A stretch of 64,000 bases of DNA from Fluviicola sp. Its GTDB lineage: Bacteria; Bacteroidota; Bacteroidia; Flavobacteriales_D; Crocinitomicaceae. The stretch covers positions 1,240,001 through 1,304,000 of the forward strand of contig NZ_JBCNJT010000002.1 of assembly GCF_039596395.1 (NCBI RefSeq), given 5' to 3'. The notes under the pieces were generated by a model, which had not been told where the DNA came from, ran no database searches, and saw only the letters and a program-made list of their open reading frames with translations. Shown one piece after another: positions 1,497 to 48,597 of the stretch (position 1 is the first letter of the stretch; each line of letters opens with the position of its first letter). The translations under genes were made by a program, and so were the position numbers.

Positions 1497-2573
1497 ATGA
1501 AAAGAAGAACCGGAATCATTATACTTCTCGTCCTGGTATTGGCAGCTTTTATCCTTGTTCCTTTGATGCGTTCGGGCGGCGGATCGGAAGAACTGGAAAT
1601 GGCAAAGTTTGACCTTCCGGGTGATCCGCAGGCAAAGTACGGACAGGATATTCCTATTAAGTTCGTGATCCCTGAAGGTTTGGCGAAAGTGGAATTGCTT
1701 TACAATGATTCGGTATTTGAGACCTGGAATAACCCGAAAGCGCAGACCAGAACAGTTGCTTTGAAAACGAATTATTACGGTGTGGGTTCCAGATCTTTGA
1801 TTTTGAGATCGACGTTTAAGGACGGAACGGTGTTGGATAATTCGGCGATTGTCCGTGTAACTTCAGACATTGACCCGGAAATCCTGTTTGTGAAAATTGT
1901 CAATGAATTGCCGCACAACCCGGAAAACTATACGCAGGGTTATGAGTTTGACGGAAACCAGTTGTATGAAGGTACCGGAGATCCGGGGCAGCAGGGAAAA
2001 ACGGTGATCGGGCCGGTTTCTTTGCAGACGGGAGCATTCCTGGAACCGAAAAACGGGTTGGACGCTACTTATTTCGGGGAAGGAATTACCATTTTGGGAG
2101 ATTTGATCTACCAGATTACCTGGCAAAACAGCAAGTGCTTTGTATACGATAAGAAAACCATGGTGTTGAAGAACGAGTTTACTTATGTAGGCCAGGGTTG
2201 GGGATTGTGCAACGACGGAAAATCGATTATTATGTCAGATGGTTCCGAGCGCATTACCTTCCGGGATCCGAAATCTTTCCAGGCAACGAAGGTGATTGAA
2301 GTTTACGACAACGTAGGGCCAAGAACGAACCTGAACGAATTGGAATACATCGACGGGAAGATCTATGCGAATGTTTACCAAACGGGGACTGTTTTGGTGA
2401 TTGAACCGACAACCGGCCGTGTTTTGCAGGAAATCGATGCCAACGAGTTGGTGATCCGCGGAAAAGGAACGGGTGATGTACTGAACGGGATCGCTTATAA
2501 CAAGCTGACGAAGAAAACTTACATGACCGGAAAATACTGGACGAAGACCTTCGAAGTTCAATTTGCGAAGTAA
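1497..2573 (+). CDS. Glutaminyl-peptide cyclotransferase (glutamine cyclotransferase)
   Basis: Predicted enzyme that converts N-terminal glutamine to pyroglutamate on exported proteins. The 358-residue product has one N-terminal hydrophobic segment (about residues 6-25) that would anchor or export it, an immunoglobulin-like stretch (about 40-125), then a beta-propeller of the plant/bacterial glutamine-cyclotransferase type. Propeller signatures are NYTQGYEFDGNQLYEGTG, YFGEGIT, GWGLCNDG, LNELEYIDGKIYANVY and NGIAYNKLTKKTYMTGK. It lies between ytxJ and tadA with 2-3 base gaps. Nearly all other exported proteins in this window have Gln right after the predicted signal-peptide cleavage site, which fits this enzyme as a general modifier. 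Confidence 0.9.
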   Translation: MKRRTGIIILLVLVLAAFILVPLMRSGGGSEELEMAKFDLPGDPQAKYGQDIPIKFVIPEGLAKVELLYNDSVFETWNNPKAQTRTVALKTNYYGVGSRSLILRSTFKDGTVLDNSAIVRVTSDIDPEILFVKIVNELPHNPENYTQGYEFDGNQLYEGTGDPGQQGKTVIGPVSLQTGAFLEPKNGLDATYFGEGITILGDLIYQITWQNSKCFVYDKKTMVLKNEFTYVGQGWGLCNDGKSIIMSDGSERITFRDPKSFQATKVIEVYDNVGPRTNLNELEYIDGKIYANVYQTGTVLVIEPTTGRVLQEIDANELVIRGKGTGDVLNGIAYNKLTKKTYMTGKYWTKTFEVQFAK

Positions 2574-2576
2574 TTT

Positions 2577-3020
2577 ATGATCTCTCCCTACAACGACGAA
2601 TATTTCATGCGCCAGGCGTATATGGAAGCGCAAAAGGCTTTCGAACTGGGAGAAATCCCGGTTGGTGCGGTCGTTGTGGTCAATAACCAGATCATTGCCC
2701 GGGCTCATAATTTGACCGAACGGTTACACGACGTGACGGCGCATGCGGAAATGCAGGCAATTACGGCGGCTTCAGAGTACCTGGGAGCAAAATACCTGAA
2801 AGATTGTACGCTCTACGTGACGCTTGAGCCTTGCGTGATGTGTGCAGGAGCTTTGTATTGGTCGCAGCTGGACAAGATCATTTTTGCTGCCCGTGATGAA
2901 AAGCGCGGAGCCGGCCGTTTCCAAAATGAATTATATCACCCCAAAACGGTTGTCAGCAAAGGGCCATTGGAGAACGAATGTTCGCAGCTAATGATTGATT
3001 TTTTTAAAGAAAAACGATAA
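2577..3020 (+). CDS. tadA: tRNA-specific adenosine deaminase
   Basis: Zinc-dependent deaminase that converts the wobble adenosine of tRNA-Arg(ACG) to inosine. The cytidine-deaminase-like motif HAE is at residues 56-58 (His zinc ligand, Glu proton shuttle) and PCxxC supplies Cys86 and Cys89. The 147-residue length is normal for bacterial TadA. The C-terminal region DEKRGAGRF matches the TadA pattern. It is the last gene of the pheS row and is followed by a strong hairpin terminator. Confidence 0.95.
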   Translation: MISPYNDEYFMRQAYMEAQKAFELGEIPVGAVVVVNNQIIARAHNLTERLHDVTAHAEMQAITAASEYLGAKYLKDCTLYVTLEPCVMCAGALYWSQLDKIIFAARDEKRGAGRFQNELYHPKTVVSKGPLENECSQLMIDFFKEKR

Positions 3021-3023
3021 TTG

Positions 3024-3060
3024 GTAGGGGCGAAAAATTTTTCGTCCCTACTGGTTTTTT
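3024..3060 (+). terminator. Intrinsic terminator after tadA
   Basis: A 14-bp near-perfect stem (GTAGGGGCGAAAAA pairing with TTTTTCGTCCCTAC, with one G-U pair) is followed by a T run at 3055-3060. It lies 3 bases after the tadA stop and would end the pheS-tadA transcript. Confidence 0.85.
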
Positions 3061-3124
3061 ACCGGTTTACACCTGATTTTTACCATTCGCGTATCCTTTT
3101 TTCTCCGTAGTAATGATTATTCGT

Positions 3125-3132
3125 TAGATTTG
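3125..3132 (+). promoter_or_regulatory. Bacteroidota -7 element TAGATTTG
   Basis: Matches the TAnnTTTG -7 consensus of the Bacteroidota housekeeping sigma factor. It lies 15 bases before the ABC ATPase start chosen at 3148. No good TTG -33 box was found at the expected distance, so the call rests on the -7 element alone. Confidence 0.45.
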
Positions 3133-3147
3133 GTTAAAATCCAGCGT

Positions 3148-4047
3148 ATGTCAGAGATTGTTTTGCAAGTAACTAATTTATCCAAAAGATATAAGAAAGT
3201 GGAAGCCGTAAAGGATATCTCTTTCAGTATCCAAAAAGGAAATGTTTATGGTCTGCTTGGTCCCAACGGAAGTGGTAAAACTACCACTTTGGCCATGTTG
3301 ATGGGAATTTTACACCCCACTCAGGGTTCATTTTCCTGGTTCGGGAACGGACAGGAGGACAAGAACCGGTTGCGGATCGGGTGTTTACTGGAAACTCCCA
3401 ACTTTTACCCGTATTTGAATGCTTATGATAATTTACGGGTAACGGCTACGATCAAAAACATGACGAATCCGGGAGCCCGAATCGAAGAGGTACTGGAATA
3501 CGTGGATTTGAAAGAGCGCGGCAAAAGAACTTTCCGTACTTATTCCCTGGGAATGAAACAACGCCTGGCTGTGGCCGCCACTTTGCTTTCTGACCCGGAA
3601 GTGCTTGTGCTGGATGAACCGACTAACGGATTGGACCCGGAGGGAATCGCTGAAATGAGGGAATTGATCCTGAAGATCGGTGCGGAAGGAAAAACGATCA
3701 TTCTTGCCTCACACATTTTGGATGAAGTTCAAAAAATCTGTTCGCACGTGGTGATGCTGAAGCAAGGTGAAATGGTCTACAACGGAAGTATGACCGAACT
3801 GTTGCTGCAGCGCAAATCTTACCAGTTAATGGCCGACGATCCTGACAAGTTACTATCCGTTTTGCGTGGCTTGCCGGTTGTGAAGATTCTGACCGAAGAT
3901 CCGAATTCGTTGATGGTGGAATTGGACGAAAACCTGAGTGGTGCCGATTTGAACCGCATGATAGCAGAGAAGGGTATTTATCTTTCGGAATTACACGCTT
4001 ATCAAAAAAGTTTAGAGACTATTTTCTTAGAAAGAATGAAATTATGA
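3148..4047 (+). CDS. ABC transporter ATP-binding protein (ABC-2 exporter type)
   Basis: Nucleotide-binding subunit of an ABC exporter. Walker A GPNGSGKT is at residues 38-45, signature SLGMKQR around 133-139, Walker B VLVLDEPT around 152-159, and the switch histidine at 189 (ASHILDE). The C-terminal ~90 residues are the variable domain often found in CcmA/DrrA/bacitracin-type ATPases. The ATG at 3148 is preferred over an upstream in-frame TTG at 3130, because that TTG overlaps the likely promoter. The last four bases overlap the permease gene, indicating coupled translation. The substrate cannot be told. Confidence 0.93.
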   Translation: MSEIVLQVTNLSKRYKKVEAVKDISFSIQKGNVYGLLGPNGSGKTTTLAMLMGILHPTQGSFSWFGNGQEDKNRLRIGCLLETPNFYPYLNAYDNLRVTATIKNMTNPGARIEEVLEYVDLKERGKRTFRTYSLGMKQRLAVAATLLSDPEVLVLDEPTNGLDPEGIAEMRELILKIGAEGKTIILASHILDEVQKICSHVVMLKQGEMVYNGSMTELLLQRKSYQLMADDPDKLLSVLRGLPVVKILTEDPNSLMVELDENLSGADLNRMIAEKGIYLSELHAYQKSLETIFLERMKL

Positions 4048-4835
4048 GACAGATTATAGCATTGGAGTATGCCAAATTGAGAAAATTCCATACTCTTAAA
4101 ATATTGTTTGCGGTTTATATGGTGGTCGTTCCTTGCTGGATGTACTTTATGAACTTCTTTTTCAAGATGAATCCCGGGTTGAAGGCCATTTTCACACAGG
4201 CAAACACGTTTGATTTCCCGCATATCTGGAGTTTCGTTACCTATAGTGCAAGTTTCTTCAATATCCTGCTGGCGGTTTCGGTGGTTGTCATTACTACGAA
4301 TGATATCCAGTACAAAACCATGCGGCAAAACATCATTGACGGGCTTACCAAAAGACAGGTGATTTTCGGGAAGTTTGCTTTCGTGATTTTCCTGAGTACC
4401 ATTGCGACCGTGTATACTTTCCTTTGCGGCTTGGTAATCGGTTTGATCGAATCTGCAAATACGGATTTCTACCAGAACATTCACCTGAACATGCTCTACT
4501 TCCTCCAGACGATCGGTTACTTCAGCTTTGCATTCCTTTTTGCCATATTGGTGAAAAGACCTGCTATTGCAATTGTTACATTCATCATTTACTTCCCGGT
4601 TGAAACCATTGTGGGGAATATTATTTCCCAGAAAATGTACCAGTTCTTCCCGCTGAAGATTTATGCGGACCTGACTCCGATTCCTTTCTTTAAAGCAGTC
4701 ATTCACTCGGGACCTAAAAATGCGAATAACGACATCTTCCTGTTGAGTTCGACCGAGCAGTTGTCTTTGGCAGGAGTTTATATCGTGCTTTGTTTTGCAG
4801 TGACTTATTTTATTCTTAAACGAAGAGACCTGTAA
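4044..4835 (+). CDS. ABC-2 type transporter permease
   Basis: A 263-residue integral membrane protein with about six predicted helices (for example around residues 18-38, 63-83, 110-132, 149-170, 175-195 and 235-255) and short loops, the layout of ABC-2 permeases. It overlaps the ATPase gene by four bases (ATGA) and should be its membrane partner. The DNDIQYKTMRQNIIDG-like cytoplasmic segment after the second helix is typical of this permease group. The exported substrate is unknown. Confidence 0.85.
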   Translation: MRQIIALEYAKLRKFHTLKILFAVYMVVVPCWMYFMNFFFKMNPGLKAIFTQANTFDFPHIWSFVTYSASFFNILLAVSVVVITTNDIQYKTMRQNIIDGLTKRQVIFGKFAFVIFLSTIATVYTFLCGLVIGLIESANTDFYQNIHLNMLYFLQTIGYFSFAFLFAILVKRPAIAIVTFIIYFPVETIVGNIISQKMYQFFPLKIYADLTPIPFFKAVIHSGPKNANNDIFLLSSTEQLSLAGVYIVLCFAVTYFILKRRDL

Positions 4836-4931
4836 AAAAAGCTAACTGGTTAGCCTTCATTTCGTTAACAAACTAACAAGTTTGGAATTTCGAAGTCTGT
4901 GTTCTAAATTGCGGGACATTAAACTTCTACT

Positions 4932-6362
4932 ATGAATAAACTATTACTATGTGGAGCCCTGTTTACGGGCTTGTCAACTCATTCCCAAACCACTCTTTTC
5001 CAGGACAATTTCGAGGCAGGAGGAGGAAACTGGACCCTGAATGGCGGGTCGGGTTTAAATCAGTGGGTTATTAATTCGGAATACGTGGATAACTCCGGTT
5101 TCGGGCTTGTTGCCGACACACCGGATGAACCGGCCGGAGTAACGAACGGGCCGAATTCCGCTTACCTGCACATTTATAATACACAGGCGTGTGGTTTTGG
5201 AATCTGCAATGCTTCCTTCGATACCGGATCTTCCTCCAATCAAAGTGCTACGCTAACACCGATCGGTACAACAGGTTTCACGAACGTTACGTTGACGTTT
5301 ATCTATTTGTGTGACGGGGCAAGCGGAAGTGCTTACGGAATTGTAGAATATTCCACAGATGGGGGAGGTACCTGGACTGCTGCTTCAGGACAGTATTCGG
5401 GTGTTTCTACCTGGACCAATGCTTCCATTGCGCTTCCGGCATTTGACAATGCGCCTGCCCTGAAATTCCGTTTCAGATGGCAAAACGGCAATACCGGAAA
5501 CGATCCTGCTTTTGCAATTGATGAAGTAAAAATTACAGGAACTCCGGGAGCGGGTGCAACAGTAGGTACAGGAGCGATTACGACAACTACTTATTGTTCG
5601 AATACTACAGCAAATATTTCTGTTCCTTTCACAGTAACGGGAACAATCAACTCCGGAAATGTTTACACGGCACAATTATCCAACAGTGCAGGATCTTTTG
5701 CTGCTCCGACTGCAATCGGAACTTTGTCTTCTACTGCAACAGGAAGTTTGAGTATTTCTGCAACAATTCCAAGCGGATTGCCGGCTGGTAACGGATACCG
5801 CATTCGTGTGGATGCATCGAACCCGGCGACTACGGGAACGGATAACGGAATGAACCTGACGGTTGCTGCACCTCCAACCATTAATGCTACTCCATTTCCT
5901 GTAAACGGAACAATCTGTGCAGGAAACTCCGCTACGATAACAGCTTCCGGAGCAAATACCTATACCTGGAGTCCTGCCGGATCGCTGAGCAGTTCAACAG
6001 GATCTACTGTAACAGCAACACCTTCCGCTACACAAGTGTATACAGTGTCGGGTATTGATGCAAACGGATGTTCCAACAGCACAACCATTACGATTACTGT
6101 TGAAAGCTGCGCCGGACTGGAAGAAGCATCCTTCGGCGATTTCGAATTGTACCCGAATCCTGCCAGTGAAAAACTGAACCTGAATTTCGGAGAATTGAAA
6201 GGGATTCAGTCGGTGTCTGTTCTGGATCTTTCAGGAAGAACGGTTCTTTCCGAGAAGGTTTTTTCCAATACCATCAACATCCATTCTCTGGAAAGCGGGA
6301 AGTACTTCCTGGTGATTGAACACGAAGCGGGAAGATCTGCTAAGGCATTTGTGAAACACTAA
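4932..6362 (+). CDS. T9SS type A sorting-domain secreted protein
   Basis: A 476-residue exported protein. The signal peptide (residues 1-18) ends at HS before Gln19, so the mature N-terminus would be Gln. Residues ~20-200 resemble a jelly-roll 'MAM/adhesion-like' module (GFTNVTLTF, STDGGGTW, LKFRFRW, FAIDEVKI), followed by two Ser/Thr-rich immunoglobulin-like repeats. The last ~75 residues are a type A C-terminal sorting domain, beginning FELYPNPASEKLNLNF and containing LDLSGRTVL and SGKYFLVI. This predicts secretion through T9SS with cell-surface attachment. No catalytic motif was recognised. Confidence 0.85.
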   Translation: MNKLLLCGALFTGLSTHSQTTLFQDNFEAGGGNWTLNGGSGLNQWVINSEYVDNSGFGLVADTPDEPAGVTNGPNSAYLHIYNTQACGFGICNASFDTGSSSNQSATLTPIGTTGFTNVTLTFIYLCDGASGSAYGIVEYSTDGGGTWTAASGQYSGVSTWTNASIALPAFDNAPALKFRFRWQNGNTGNDPAFAIDEVKITGTPGAGATVGTGAITTTTYCSNTTANISVPFTVTGTINSGNVYTAQLSNSAGSFAAPTAIGTLSSTATGSLSISATIPSGLPAGNGYRIRVDASNPATTGTDNGMNLTVAAPPTINATPFPVNGTICAGNSATITASGANTYTWSPAGSLSSSTGSTVTATPSATQVYTVSGIDANGCSNSTTITITVESCAGLEEASFGDFELYPNPASEKLNLNFGELKGIQSVSVLDLSGRTVLSEKVFSNTINIHSLESGKYFLVIEHEAGRSAKAFVKH

Positions 6363-45451: not shown

Positions 45452-45543
45452 GGGGATAACAGTGGTGATGACTTTGTTCAAACGTCCGAATATGCTTTGT
45501 TCAAACGGCCAATTTTAAACTTCATTGCGAATTTGCAAGATGG

Positions 45544-45608
45544 CAATATAGCCATGTTCGAATATTGCAATATGGAGATTTTGACAGGTTTGTTTCGACG
45601 GGTTCTCC
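45544..45608 (+). repeat. ~65-bp direct repeat, copy A
   Basis: About three quarters identical to 48254-48317 in the same orientation, with an identical 17-base core GCAATATGGAGATTTTG (45567-45583). It starts 131 bases upstream of the SDR start codon. In copy A a CAATAT/ATATTG inverted pair can form a small hairpin. Confidence 0.7.
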
Positions 45609-45687
45609 AGAGCTTTTGCAGTTATCGTTTCTACAGTGAGACGGAACGTATCTCCGGAGAACCCACACTGGTATTTTGCGGATCGAA

Positions 45688-45834
45688 GTCAATCTCCAGC
45701 GAAGATTTGTCAATCTTCAACAAACCTTTGTTAATAACTCAGAGACCCAAGCCCTTGTAAAACGAACCGAAGTCAATCTCACGGGAACACTTGTCAATCT
45801 CACGGAGACCTGAATCAATCTTCAGCGAACAATA
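45688..45834. repeat. Tandem array of seven 21-nt units
   Basis: Units begin at 45688, 45709, 45730, 45751, 45772, 45793 and 45814. The best-conserved start is GTCAATCT; units 3 and 4 are degenerate. In one frame five of the seven units begin (V/I)N, mostly (V/I)NL, as in VNLQRRF and VNLQQTF. That frame has no start codon and is stopped within unit 6. The array ends 15 bases before the amidoligase stop codon. No spacers, so it is not a CRISPR. Confidence 0.75.
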
Positions 45835-45849
45835 GAAAGATGAAACGTC

Positions 45850-47325
45850 CTATTCAACTGCCTCCAACTGTTTTAAATGCTGTGCTACCTGGTATTCATT
45901 GAAATTATCCCACTTCGGAACCGTATTCGGTTTATCGCCCAGCATATTGTTGATGCAGGTATTATTGTCCTTGTATTTCTCATGTAACAATGCGATGATC
46001 CGGAAGAAAAATTCGTCTAATTTCACAACCGGGTCAAATTCTGATTGAAGGGCCGAAAGGTTTAATACTTCCAGGACTTCCTGTTTTTCTTCGGAAGTGA
46101 TTTCTGTCCGGTAACCGGTTTTCAGTGCTTTAAACACCAGATTGTTCCATACCACGCTGTAGTGTCCCCAGGGTACATTTGGGAGGTTCAAAGAATGCTC
46201 GCAGATGATTATAATAGCGTGCAGCAGATTTGGTAAATAGCTTGCCGGGAATTCATCAAAACTTCTGAATTCGAAACCGCTTTGATATATTTTTTCCTGG
46301 TTGAAATCCAAACCGACATCCGAAAGCAGTTCATAATCAAAATCATCCGCAATCTGATCGCGCCACCAAATGTTTTCTTCTTTTTTAAACTTCAACAATT
46401 TTCGAAAGTCTTCGACCGGATAAGTCAGGATTTTTCCCTTTGCCATGGATTTATGGAATGTACCAACTCCGGTATAGCGCGACATGGCATTCCGCATGGA
46501 ACCACCGGCGAACTGTTCTTTCAAGTGATATTTTTCGCTGATCACCTGCATGATATCGGGGCTTCCGAGTGTTGCTATGAAAAGCGGTTCGAACCATTGC
46601 AGCAAATAGATGGCATTGGCATGTTTGGCTTCAAAATCTTCATAATCAATAATGCGGCTGTTTTCCGTAAGTGTCGGCAGCGTGATGTGGAAATGGTATG
46701 TTCCGTTGTTGAATAACACGATGTTTTCCTGGTTCGACATGAACATATTGAACCCGGTATTGTAATCCGGGAAACGCAATTTTCCGTTCAGTACAGCAGA
46801 TTCATTGATTTTATCGATAAAGAGCTTCTTGGTAGCAGCCAGTTCATCACACGAATCGGAAATGGTTCTGTTTTCAAAGTATTTGGTTACAAATTCAATG
46901 GAATCTCCGTCAAAGTTCACGGATCCCATCGGATTGTTCTTTTGAGTGAGCATACTCCGGATATTGTATGGCTGGGTTTCCAGGAAGTTTTCCAGGATCG
47001 ATTTTCCCGAATATTCCGGGTTGTCTTCCAATGGTTCAGTACCGGCGATGGTTTTATGCTGCCAGTTTAAATCGACTTTCTCCAGTGAATGACTGTTCAT
47101 CATCCGGCTCACCCTGTAGGTAAGGTTTTTATCAAAAGCAGTTGCTACAGGAATTGCATAACTTCCATCTTTGTAGCACTTTCTGTAATCAATGCTATAG
47201 CGTTCATGGCCAATTTTTTCTTGTATGAATGCACCGGAAACGAGGAGCGATTCTTCGAATTGCAAGTATGTTTCGTTTTCTAATCCAATTCCCCAGTACA
47301 GTTTTTGTTTCGGTTTCTCGTTCAT
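45850..47325 (-). CDS. Putative amidoligase (glutamine synthetase/GCS-fold carboxylate-amine ligase)
   Basis: A 491-residue cytoplasmic protein not assigned to a named family. The residue pattern fits the COOH-NH2 ligase fold of glutamine synthetase, gamma-glutamylcysteine ligase and 'amidoligase' families: an early ExE (GLENE, Glu16 and Glu18), an acidic SIEF (Glu144), a histidine strand NGTYHFHITLP (His211/His213), an arginine stretch MRNAMSRYTG (Arg278/Arg283) and a late ExR (GFEFRSFDEFP, Glu352/Arg354). Such enzymes form amide bonds with ATP. It is the second gene of a pair, 49 bases after a putative Cys/His amidase, consistent with a ligase/hydrolase couple acting on a modified peptide or small metabolite. 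The fold is inferred from motifs alone. Confidence 0.6.
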   Translation of the reverse strand: MNEKPKQKLYWGIGLENETYLQFEESLLVSGAFIQEKIGHERYSIDYRKCYKDGSYAIPVATAFDKNLTYRVSRMMNSHSLEKVDLNWQHKTIAGTEPLEDNPEYSGKSILENFLETQPYNIRSMLTQKNNPMGSVNFDGDSIEFVTKYFENRTISDSCDELAATKKLFIDKINESAVLNGKLRFPDYNTGFNMFMSNQENIVLFNNGTYHFHITLPTLTENSRIIDYEDFEAKHANAIYLLQWFEPLFIATLGSPDIMQVISEKYHLKEQFAGGSMRNAMSRYTGVGTFHKSMAKGKILTYPVEDFRKLLKFKKEENIWWRDQIADDFDYELLSDVGLDFNQEKIYQSGFEFRSFDEFPASYLPNLLHAIIIICEHSLNLPNVPWGHYSVVWNNLVFKALKTGYRTEITSEEKQEVLEVLNLSALQSEFDPVVKLDEFFFRIIALLHEKYKDNNTCINNMLGDKPNTVPKWDNFNEYQVAQHLKQLEAVE

Positions 47326-47374
47326 TTATTTCAATTGGCTTTTATAAGTAGCGTATTTCAGAATCTGGTTTTAT

Positions 47375-48109
47375 TTAAGCGTGGTAAAAGAAGACATGGG
47401 AAGAATAACGCTCATGGTTCCACCAGTCTTTTCGGGCTTTTGCGAAGTAATTGTAATTCAATTTTCCGGCTTGCGACTGCAAAGGATATTTGACGACCCC
47501 GTTTTCCCGGTATGCTTTTTTCAAATGAGTTTCAGGAACGATCGGAACAATGTGTCCGGAAAGGCCTTTGATTTTCCGTTTGGCGCAAATAATCCCTACT
47601 CCGCCTTCTTCGTTTACTTTTCGCTGAATTTCATCCAGATCAGTCATTTGCTTCCAGCCGAAACCTGGTCCCCATTCACTCAGCCAGTCGTGGATAGCAC
47701 TCGAATAAATCCGGTCAACCGTTTCTTCAAAAACTGCTTCCACTTCTTCTCCAGCCAGCAGTTTCTCAATAGATTCCTCTGTCCACCAAACAGTAGGCAG
47801 GTAAACTTGTGAGAAATAGCAGTAATCATACGAATAAACATTGCAATACGTGTCTTCCGGAGTACGTTGGTAACGCAAGCTGTGCTTCACGTCCAGTTTA
47901 TCGATGAGGCGCTGAATGCTTTCACGCTTTGTTTCAGGACTGGTAAGATCCCTGTACGGAATACTCTTGTCACTGATCGGATGAGCTTTATCCAGCATGG
48001 AATCCAGACGGGAATCCGGACTCGGTAATAAATGAGCCGGTTTTATTCGCCTGTCAGATGTTGGATCTTCAAGGACGATGGGATGAGTTGCTGTAGTTTC
48101 TTTTTTCAT
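47375..48109 (-). CDS. Putative papain-fold (NlpC/P60- or CHAP-like) amidase
   Basis: A 244-residue protein without a signal peptide. A Cys-His-polar triad order typical of papain-like amidases is seen: Cys89 in DTYCNVYSYDYCYF at the head of a helix, His186 in GHIVPIVPE on a strand, and Gln211/Gln213 in LQSQAGKLNYNYF. Trp-rich stretches (YLPTVWW, DWLSEWGPGFGWKQ) surround the likely pocket. The first ~75 residues look disordered or regulatory. It precedes the putative amidoligase in one operon, which suggests that the two make and break the same amide bond. TAACTTTA, one base off the -7 consensus, lies about 35 bases upstream of the start. Confidence 0.55.
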   Translation of the reverse strand: MKKETTATHPIVLEDPTSDRRIKPAHLLPSPDSRLDSMLDKAHPISDKSIPYRDLTSPETKRESIQRLIDKLDVKHSLRYQRTPEDTYCNVYSYDYCYFSQVYLPTVWWTEESIEKLLAGEEVEAVFEETVDRIYSSAIHDWLSEWGPGFGWKQMTDLDEIQRKVNEEGGVGIICAKRKIKGLSGHIVPIVPETHLKKAYRENGVVKYPLQSQAGKLNYNYFAKARKDWWNHERYSSHVFFYHA

Positions 48110-48253
48110 GTTGAACGTTTTGATTGACGCGCAATGACTGTTAGTTGTAAAGTTAAGATTTCGTGCATGTGAATTGCTATTATTTGCTTTTCAAATCCAA
48201 CATTCCGTGCAAAATTCGTGCAATCTCCCTTTCATTCCCGGAAATCAACAGGA

Positions 48254-48317
48254 CAATATAGCACTATTCGAAAGTAGCAATATGGAGATTTTGTCGGGTT
48301 TGTTCGATGGTTGTTCC
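48254..48317 (+). repeat. ~65-bp direct repeat, copy B
   Basis: Second copy of the element at 45544-45608, same orientation; the identical core is at 48277-48293. It starts 145 bases upstream of the amidase start codon, close to the distance of copy A from the SDR start. The two copies bracket the amidase-amidoligase unit and the 21-nt array. Confidence 0.7.
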
Positions 48318-48360: not shown

Positions 48361-48597
48361 CTATTCTTTCCAGGTCAGATACTCTTTTTTCAAACAATGG
48401 CCGCAGGGCCGGAAACCGGTTGAAATGGCTTCCTGTTCATCGGAGAAGAAAACCCGGTTTTCTCTTTTCATGCGTTTGCCGGAAGTGCAGGCCAGCGTTC
48501 CGTAGATTTTCAGCGTTTTATTTCCCCCGAAACGGATTTCCTACTTCCTGATCCTTCTTCTCAATTCCCGGTCGGTGAGTTCGTTGTGTAAAATCAT
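48361..48597 (-). pseudogene. Ada-type metal-binding mini-protein, interrupted by in-frame TAG
   Basis: Reading from the ATG at 48597, the frame gives MILHNELTDRELRRRIRK, then a TAG at 48541-48543, then EIRFGGNKTLKIYGTL continuing to a natural TAG at 48361. The part after the stop has the Ada N-terminal-domain pattern of stand-alone Ada-like proteins: ACTSGKRMKRENRVFF and GFRPCGHC, where the cysteines would bind metal. The frame is 79 codons with no frameshift, so one base change would restore it. It starts one base after the 2OG oxygenase stop (TGA-A-ATG), so it is the third gene of the alkylation-repair operon. Sequencing error or a recent loss are both possible. Confidence 0.75.

Follow-up and report, generated by a model that had tools for sequence, protein, structure and literature searches.

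Why would a bacterium keep side by side one gene whose product resembles enzymes that make amide bonds and another whose product resembles enzymes that break them? This question is raised by two adjacent genes in a 64,000-nucleotide stretch of Fluviicola sp. (contig NZ_JBCNJT010000002.1, positions 1,240,001 to 1,304,000), hereafter called the window. They code for proteins of 491 and 244 residues, which the original prediction had taken for an amidoligase and a Cys/His amidase. Both open reading frames lie where it had placed them, and the residues that it named were re-checked against the DNA (Table 1). The ligase and the amidase are two conserved families that form one two-gene module. We propose that they may act as a cytosolic make-and-break pair whose target would be an amide bond of the gamma-glutamyl type, perhaps one in murein peptides, a reading to which we give an even chance.

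A conserved two-gene module

On the minus strand of the window, the amidase gene comes first and is followed by the ligase gene after 49 bp. We surveyed 24 stretches, 22 of which contain a ligase gene, and an amidase gene adjoins it every time (22/22); in 19 of these 22 loci the genes lie on one strand in the order amidase-ligase. Since the sample includes near neighbours with common flanking genes (L013/L067, L004/L006 and L008/L071), the 22 loci are not 22 independent events. The pair was also present in all five loci fetched from ten further genomes containing the amidase. Among genes for at least 90 residues no third neighbour is conserved, any other neighbour recurring in at most four of the 24 stretches.

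Table 1. Positions in the window of the two genes, their motifs and the associated repeat
Feature	Position	Strand	Basis
491-residue predicted carboxylate-amine ligase (GCS2/GS-fold-like)	45850..47325	-	open reading frame, conserved family, motifs
GhExE motif GLENE, residues 14-18	47272..47286	-	G14, E16, E18 invariant 18/18
Acidic motif DGDSIE, residues 139-144	46894..46911	-	D139, D141, E144 invariant 18/18
Hx[HN] motif HFH, residues 211-213	46687..46695	-	H211 18/18; 213 is H in 15, N in 3
Paired arginines R278, R283 (RNAMSR, 278-283)	46477..46494	-	invariant 18/18
ExRx2D motif EFRSFD, residues 352-357	46255..46272	-	E352, R354 18/18; D357 17/18, E in one (viral)
244-residue predicted cytosolic Tae1/NlpC-P60-like cysteine amidase	47375..48109	-	open reading frame, model fold, hydropathy
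Predicted catalytic Cys89	47843..47845	-	invariant 14/14, 17/17; first residue of model helix, low-confidence stretch
Predicted catalytic His186	47552..47554	-	invariant 14/14, 17/17; first residue of model strand
Gln213, possible third catalytic residue	47471..47473	-	invariant 14/14; replaced in some phage relatives
59-nucleotide element upstream of amidase gene	48246..48304	-	possible shared promoter/operator; repeat search
Second copy of the element, upstream of SDR gene	45536-45594		repeat search

The two families also travel together. In the relatives set, taken as one common set of 199 genomes for this count and for that of PF17541 below, ligase relatives occur in 18 genomes and amidase relatives in 18; 17 of the 19 genomes with either gene carry both, and in the two exceptions the end of a contig cuts the site. 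The small number of ligase carriers fits the label of accessory region that had been given to the locus. Pairwise distances between the ligases correlate with those between the amidases (r 0.89 over 27 loci, 0/999 permutations; duplicates and fragments L007, L011 and L028-L032 left out), and the correlation persists when two distant loci are removed (r 0.84, 0/999 permutations), as would be expected for joint inheritance. The relatives on genome contigs belong mostly to Flavobacterium and to other Flavobacteriia. Wider searches with the ligase found it in 8 of 395 genomes across the phylum and, when E values as high as 1 were allowed, in 11 of 295 across the class, of which 4 were accepted as real and 7 matches with E 0.05-0.53 were left out; the plasmid and phage collections gave no ligase match.

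Two other candidates were rejected. One was a peptide gene between the pair: the gaps range from 0 to 560 bp without a conserved open reading frame (28 gaps, some of them one locus seen twice, and two of 0 bp), and a non-conserved frame of 96 residues was called between the two genes at one locus only, L073. The other was a defence system, for which PADLOC gave no match.

Motifs of the 491-residue protein

According to passages of the survey of Iyer et al. 2008 (PMC2588565), the carboxylate-amine/ammonia ligases of the glutamine synthetase (GS) fold share a GhExE or Ex[EH] motif in strand 1, conserved acidic positions in the next two strands (2 and 3), an [HD]x[NH] motif in strand 4, two arginines in strand 5 and in the loop preceding it, and Ex[RK]x2D in strand 6. 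We aligned 18 ligases of the present family, two of them distant bacterial members and one a viral homologue, and found all these motifs in order at invariant or nearly invariant positions, the acidic residues and the arginines being identified as conserved residues of the sequence only. The ExE, HFH, paired-arginine and ExR pattern originally described in the window protein is indeed present, and its key residues are kept across the family; K298 is likewise invariant (18/18).

We then used an ordered pattern made of GhExE, [HD]x[NH] and Ex[RK]x2D, with motifs from passages of the same survey (PMC2588565) and spacings set by us. It matches 17 of the 18 ligases and none of 282 other proteins; among 18000 shuffles, 31 match. 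The 282 proteins are open reading frames of at least 250 residues from the fetched loci, partly redundant, with nine loci (L084, L085, L106, L132-L135, L149 and L162) and all members of three families (ligase, GCS2, amidoligase) taken out. Among proteins found with the GCS2 model, 27 of 30 carry the ordered pattern (24/24, 3/3, and 0/3 of a larger type). An earlier pattern, composed after both families had been viewed, had matched 18/18 ligases, 0/282 other proteins and 5/18000 shuffles. By eye, the GCS2 consensus and the 491-residue protein also share an IWW stretch ahead of the last motif.

The family resembles GCS2/YbdK (PF04107) in the succession of GhExE, acidic motif, HxH, arginines and ExRx2D, and in a weak structural match to two YbdK entries (1r8g and 1tt4, see below). 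Unlike GCS2, it is without a PF04107 match in its 18 members, exceeds most of the GCS2 set in length by roughly 100 residues and has an amidase partner.

The predicted cysteine amidase and its plasmid and viral relatives

The model of the 244-residue protein has a predicted local distance difference test (pLDDT) score of 59.8, which falls below 50 at residues 74-91. In Foldseek it matches Tae1/Tse1 with E 4e-3 and prob 1.00, and in a structural aligner it matches Tse1 with Z 9.3 over 131 residues at 18% identity, the first 58 residues being unaligned. The top 11 rows of the aligner (Z 8.7-9.3) are all Tse1 and the next row stands at 6.7; two of the top rows have in their title PA1844, which we take to be the locus name of Tse1. 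Lower matches comprise the E. coli Gsp amidase (Z 5.4-5.7), CHAP (Z 5.3) and NlpC/P60 (Z 4.4), so that the NlpC/P60 fold, which had been put forward for comparison, ranks below Tae1. The proposed hydrolase nature of the protein is in line with these matches, and its modelled structure supports a papain-fold Tae1-like cysteine amidase. As in Tae1/Tse1 and NlpC/P60, the fold of the model is papain-like with the Cys at the start of a helix and the His at the start of a strand; unlike Tae1/Tse1, the protein is tied to a ligase.

The residues named in the original prediction fared unequally: Cys89, His186 and Gln213 are invariant in our alignment of 14 partner sequences, whereas Gln211 is not. In a wider set of 17, which adds phage relatives, Cys and His remain invariant and Gln213 varies among the latter. 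At the sequence level, the family has no NlpC/P60, CHAP or DUF2272 match in Pfam, only a weak one to Peptidase_C39_2 (best E 0.057), and no convincing match in NCBIfam, PHROGs or PADLOC. The best PDB-sequence match of its profile, RecG (E 0.005), is partial and looks like chance.

By hydropathy, the paired bacterial proteins show no signal-like or membrane stretch, the 19-residue maximum being 1.34 for the amidases and 1.62 for the ligases. In the three distant pairs L060-L062, the amidase has at its N-terminus an SH3_3 domain (PF08239, E 1.2e-8 to 5.1e-8), which falls below the cut-off in an unpaired Hymenobacter protein. The presence of SH3_3 recalls YkfC, which carries SH3b domains; unlike the situation for YkfC, the window amidase is without an SH3 domain and the pair without a conserved third neighbour.

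Unpaired relatives of the amidase were found on an Azospirillum plasmid, on a Hymenobacter plasmid and on 12 viral contigs (L150-L161); the ligase had no match on any plasmid and was not found on the examined stretches of these viral contigs. The viral amidases show 30-40% identity and the same Cys/His motifs, and gave no Pfam match in the members scanned. We scanned the neighbouring genes on five of the 12 contigs. Two of them (L151 and L157) have a holin gene two genes upstream of the amidase (phrog_199, E about 2e-10); on L152 the amidase gene is flanked by genes for a tail-fibre-like protein and a tail sheath, on L158 it lies beside a portal protein gene, and on L159 nothing telling was seen among its neighbours. 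These holin and structural-gene neighbours suggest that the family probably acts as a wall-cutting enzyme in some phages. Two members had PHROG matches, one to a family without function (E 0.0011) and one to an endolysin family (E 0.06), and these were not used. On the Azospirillum thermophilum plasmid (L033, 5083-6675), the amidase domain forms the C-terminus of a 530-residue protein with a long N-terminal region unnamed by Pfam.

The ligase has one viral relative of another kind. On the contig L149 (IMGVR_UViG_3300032270_002105, 2568-5303), a 911-residue protein consists of a ligase domain (32% identity, E 5e-84) fused to a LYS1-like domain that matches L-lysine-forming saccharopine dehydrogenase (E 2e-27; PF05222, E 1.8e-13). 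The contig also has helicase/uracil-DNA-glycosylase-like and ribonucleotide-reductase-like open reading frames, named by eye, and was labelled giant-virus-like on that basis. Two further scans gave no second viral copy of the ligase.

Possible reactions and competing explanations

How could the two proteins work together? The 491-residue protein would act as a carboxylate-amine ligase that depends on ATP and Mg, has the GS fold and is nearest in plan to GCS2/YbdK. In its site, ATP and a glutamate-like carboxylate would yield an acyl phosphate (in the superfamily, it is usually the gamma-carboxylate of glutamate that reacts), and an amine would then attack this intermediate to form the amide bond. 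We infer that the hydrolase acts on the same bond: using Cys89 and His186, it would hydrolyse the same or a similar gamma-glutamyl-type bond, and the pair would set the level of a soluble gamma-glutamyl compound or edit it. The specificity of the NlpC/P60 family, as described in passages of a structural source (PMC2954226), counts in support of a bond of this type. The substrate could involve a glutamyl-to-lysine or glutamyl-to-diaminopimelate-type amide, as one viral gene and a generality at the level of the family hint. A murein peptide is favoured only slightly over another metabolite, by analogy with YkfC, which passages of the same source present as a cytoplasmic murein tripeptide peptidase with an NlpC/P60 domain (PMC2954226).

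Several results weigh against this make-and-break reading. The ligase claim has on its side the published motif set and the absence of the signature from all 282 other proteins, but it obtained no profile or Pfam support. The 491-residue protein had no convincing match in Pfam, NCBIfam, PHROGs, PADLOC or the PDB sequences; in the 18 members, PF04107 (GCS2) gave no match up to E 10 and PF12224 (Amidoligase_2) no match at all. Profile-profile comparison with alignments of GCS2 and Amidoligase_2 from Bacteroidota (rows L107, L106 and L136, with a wrong open reading frame or unlike the rest, were dropped) gave P 0.16-0.48, not above unrelated families, the power being low for distant relatives. 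Among the positive controls, two GCS2 sets recognize each other with P 1.6e-11 and the other pairs give 0.0015, 0.003, 0.07, 0.35 and 0.56, unrelated families reaching 0.014; since these controls mostly miss distant members of the superfamily, we do not count the negative comparison as a refutation. A block-based score separated from unrelated proteins neither the ligase nor some known relatives, and was dropped as several positive controls failed. The ordered pattern itself misses the viral ligase, which has E for D, as well as three of the 30 proteins found with the GCS2 model, and it picks up 3 of 20 Amidoligase_2 proteins too.

The ligase model, built from an 11-row alignment, has a pLDDT of 40.7, and Foldseek found with it nothing credible above noise. 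In the structural aligner, the only entries that align over more than 200 residues are those of YbdK, at a weak level: E. coli 1r8g with Z 3.5 over 218 residues and a root-mean-square deviation of 6.1, and Salmonella 1tt4, taken as the YbdK counterpart, with Z 3.2 over 215 residues. A Z of such size is meaningless alone; that the match falls on the predicted family would weakly support the assignment. GS, GCS1 and PafA were absent among the structural matches listed, an absence that counts neither for nor against the ligase reading. For the amidase, the sequence profile fails to find Tse1, and the domain also occurs without the ligase, on plasmids and viral contigs. Finally, the claim that the pair is an operon suits the window and most relatives and fails for others: in five Flavobacterium records, the gap between amidase and ligase reaches 432-443 bp, so that a single transcript is not universal, and in three of the 22 loci (L060-L062, distant relatives with 34-36% identity to the window ligase and 46-49% to the window amidase) the two genes lie tail to tail.

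Which alternatives have to be considered? The one that survives best, though we hold it to be rather unlikely, is that the pair matures a metabolite or peptide with no link to murein: the ligase would build an amide compound, gamma-glutamyl or other, which the amidase would trim or recycle. The absence of a conserved third gene nearby would fit a self-contained metabolite, and the Gsp amidase does turn up in the fold comparison, but the amidase model is nearer to Tae1 and relatives of the amidase stand in lysis cassettes on two viral contigs. The synthetase domain of the glutathionylspermidine/trypanothione synthetase-amidase is an ATP-grasp. In that bifunctional system, as passages of the literature describe it, two catalytic domains make and hydrolyse one compound (PMC2784880); unlike the present pair, it is one fused protein, and its amidase gives here a weaker fold match than Tae1. 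Also supporting this idea, papain-fold or amidotransferase-like enzymes fused to GS-fold ligases, or encoded beside them, have been read as makers of peptide metabolites in passages of the survey cited above (PMC2588565).

Another possibility, which we consider quite improbable, is that the 491-residue protein is not a ligase at all and has another fold with a chance resemblance to GS motifs. It would account for the missing profile and Pfam matches, and the model is too poor to be used against it. It is opposed by the published motifs, which stand in order at invariant or nearly invariant positions and whose pattern is absent from the 282 other proteins, and by the fact that even a poor model brings up YbdK, and nothing else, as a long structural match.

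Still less credible in our view is an exported wall cutter, effector or lysin, whose producer would be protected by a ligase modifying its own wall peptide. One would then understand why the fold resembles that of Tae1, a type VI effector, as well as the SH3_3 domains of the distant pairs, the phage relatives near a holin gene and a two-gene linkage similar to that of effector and immunity genes. On the other hand, hydropathy reveals no signal peptide or transmembrane stretch and no third gene is conserved nearby. Moreover, unlike what is expected around Tae1/Tse1, the type VI sheath PF17541 (TssC) is missing from all 18 genomes of the relatives set that carry the ligase, which disfavours a type VI effector; PF17541 was the single sheath family probed, is found in 5 of the 199 genomes overall and is silent in 14 control genomes. 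A system that tags and untags proteins, like Pup ligase and depupylase, is the least plausible and we regard it as very doubtful: passages of the survey place Pup ligase in the same superfamily, using a gamma-carboxylate (PMC2588565), but the 28 amidase-ligase gaps contain no conserved small open reading frame and no third neighbour of at least 90 residues is conserved.

Coming back to the make-and-break pair, what would be new in it? That ligases and peptidases can be paired, as the original prediction had stated with reference to amidoligase surveys, is confirmed in kind: passages of the survey describe GS-fold ligases whose partner genes code for papain-fold, amidotransferase-like or cyclotransferase proteins (PMC2588565). 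As compared with these, the partner family differs here, and the novelty would lie in an apparently unnamed ligase family and a phage-related partner that resembles Tae1. In the open-access literature searched (titles and abstract openings), we found no description of this ligase-amidase pairing. Two families without a name in the searched libraries would form one minimal module that can be directly expressed and assayed. If the amidase is indeed a tamed lysin working inside the cell, it would show phage wall enzymes turning metabolic. The viral ligase-dehydrogenase fusion would be an independent clue to the substrate, pointing to a lysine-like amino acid, and makes the question of which bond is handled testable with a few defined peptides. 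A bolder and, in our opinion, unlikely extension is that this is the first dedicated cut-and-rejoin system for a murein-type gamma-glutamyl bond, made of a GS-fold non-Mur ligase and a domesticated cytosolic amidase resembling a phage lysin, the ligase having also been captured by a large eukaryote-type virus and fused to a lysine-forming saccharopine dehydrogenase.

The surroundings of the pair show a few further features. The two copies of the 59-nucleotide element listed in Table 1 form a direct repeat with 48 of 59 positions identical. Its 36-nucleotide core has, with at most three mismatches, only two sites in the 4.6 Mb genome, and a match at 43 of 59 positions is found in the relative L064, at 15904, ahead of a different gene. 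The element is a possible candidate for a shared promoter or operator. Three imperfect 38-nucleotide repeats lie at 45679-45800, just 3' of the ligase gene. On the minus strand upstream of the amidase gene, at 48361-48500, a short Ada-type-like cysteine stretch (CGHC) was noticed by eye.

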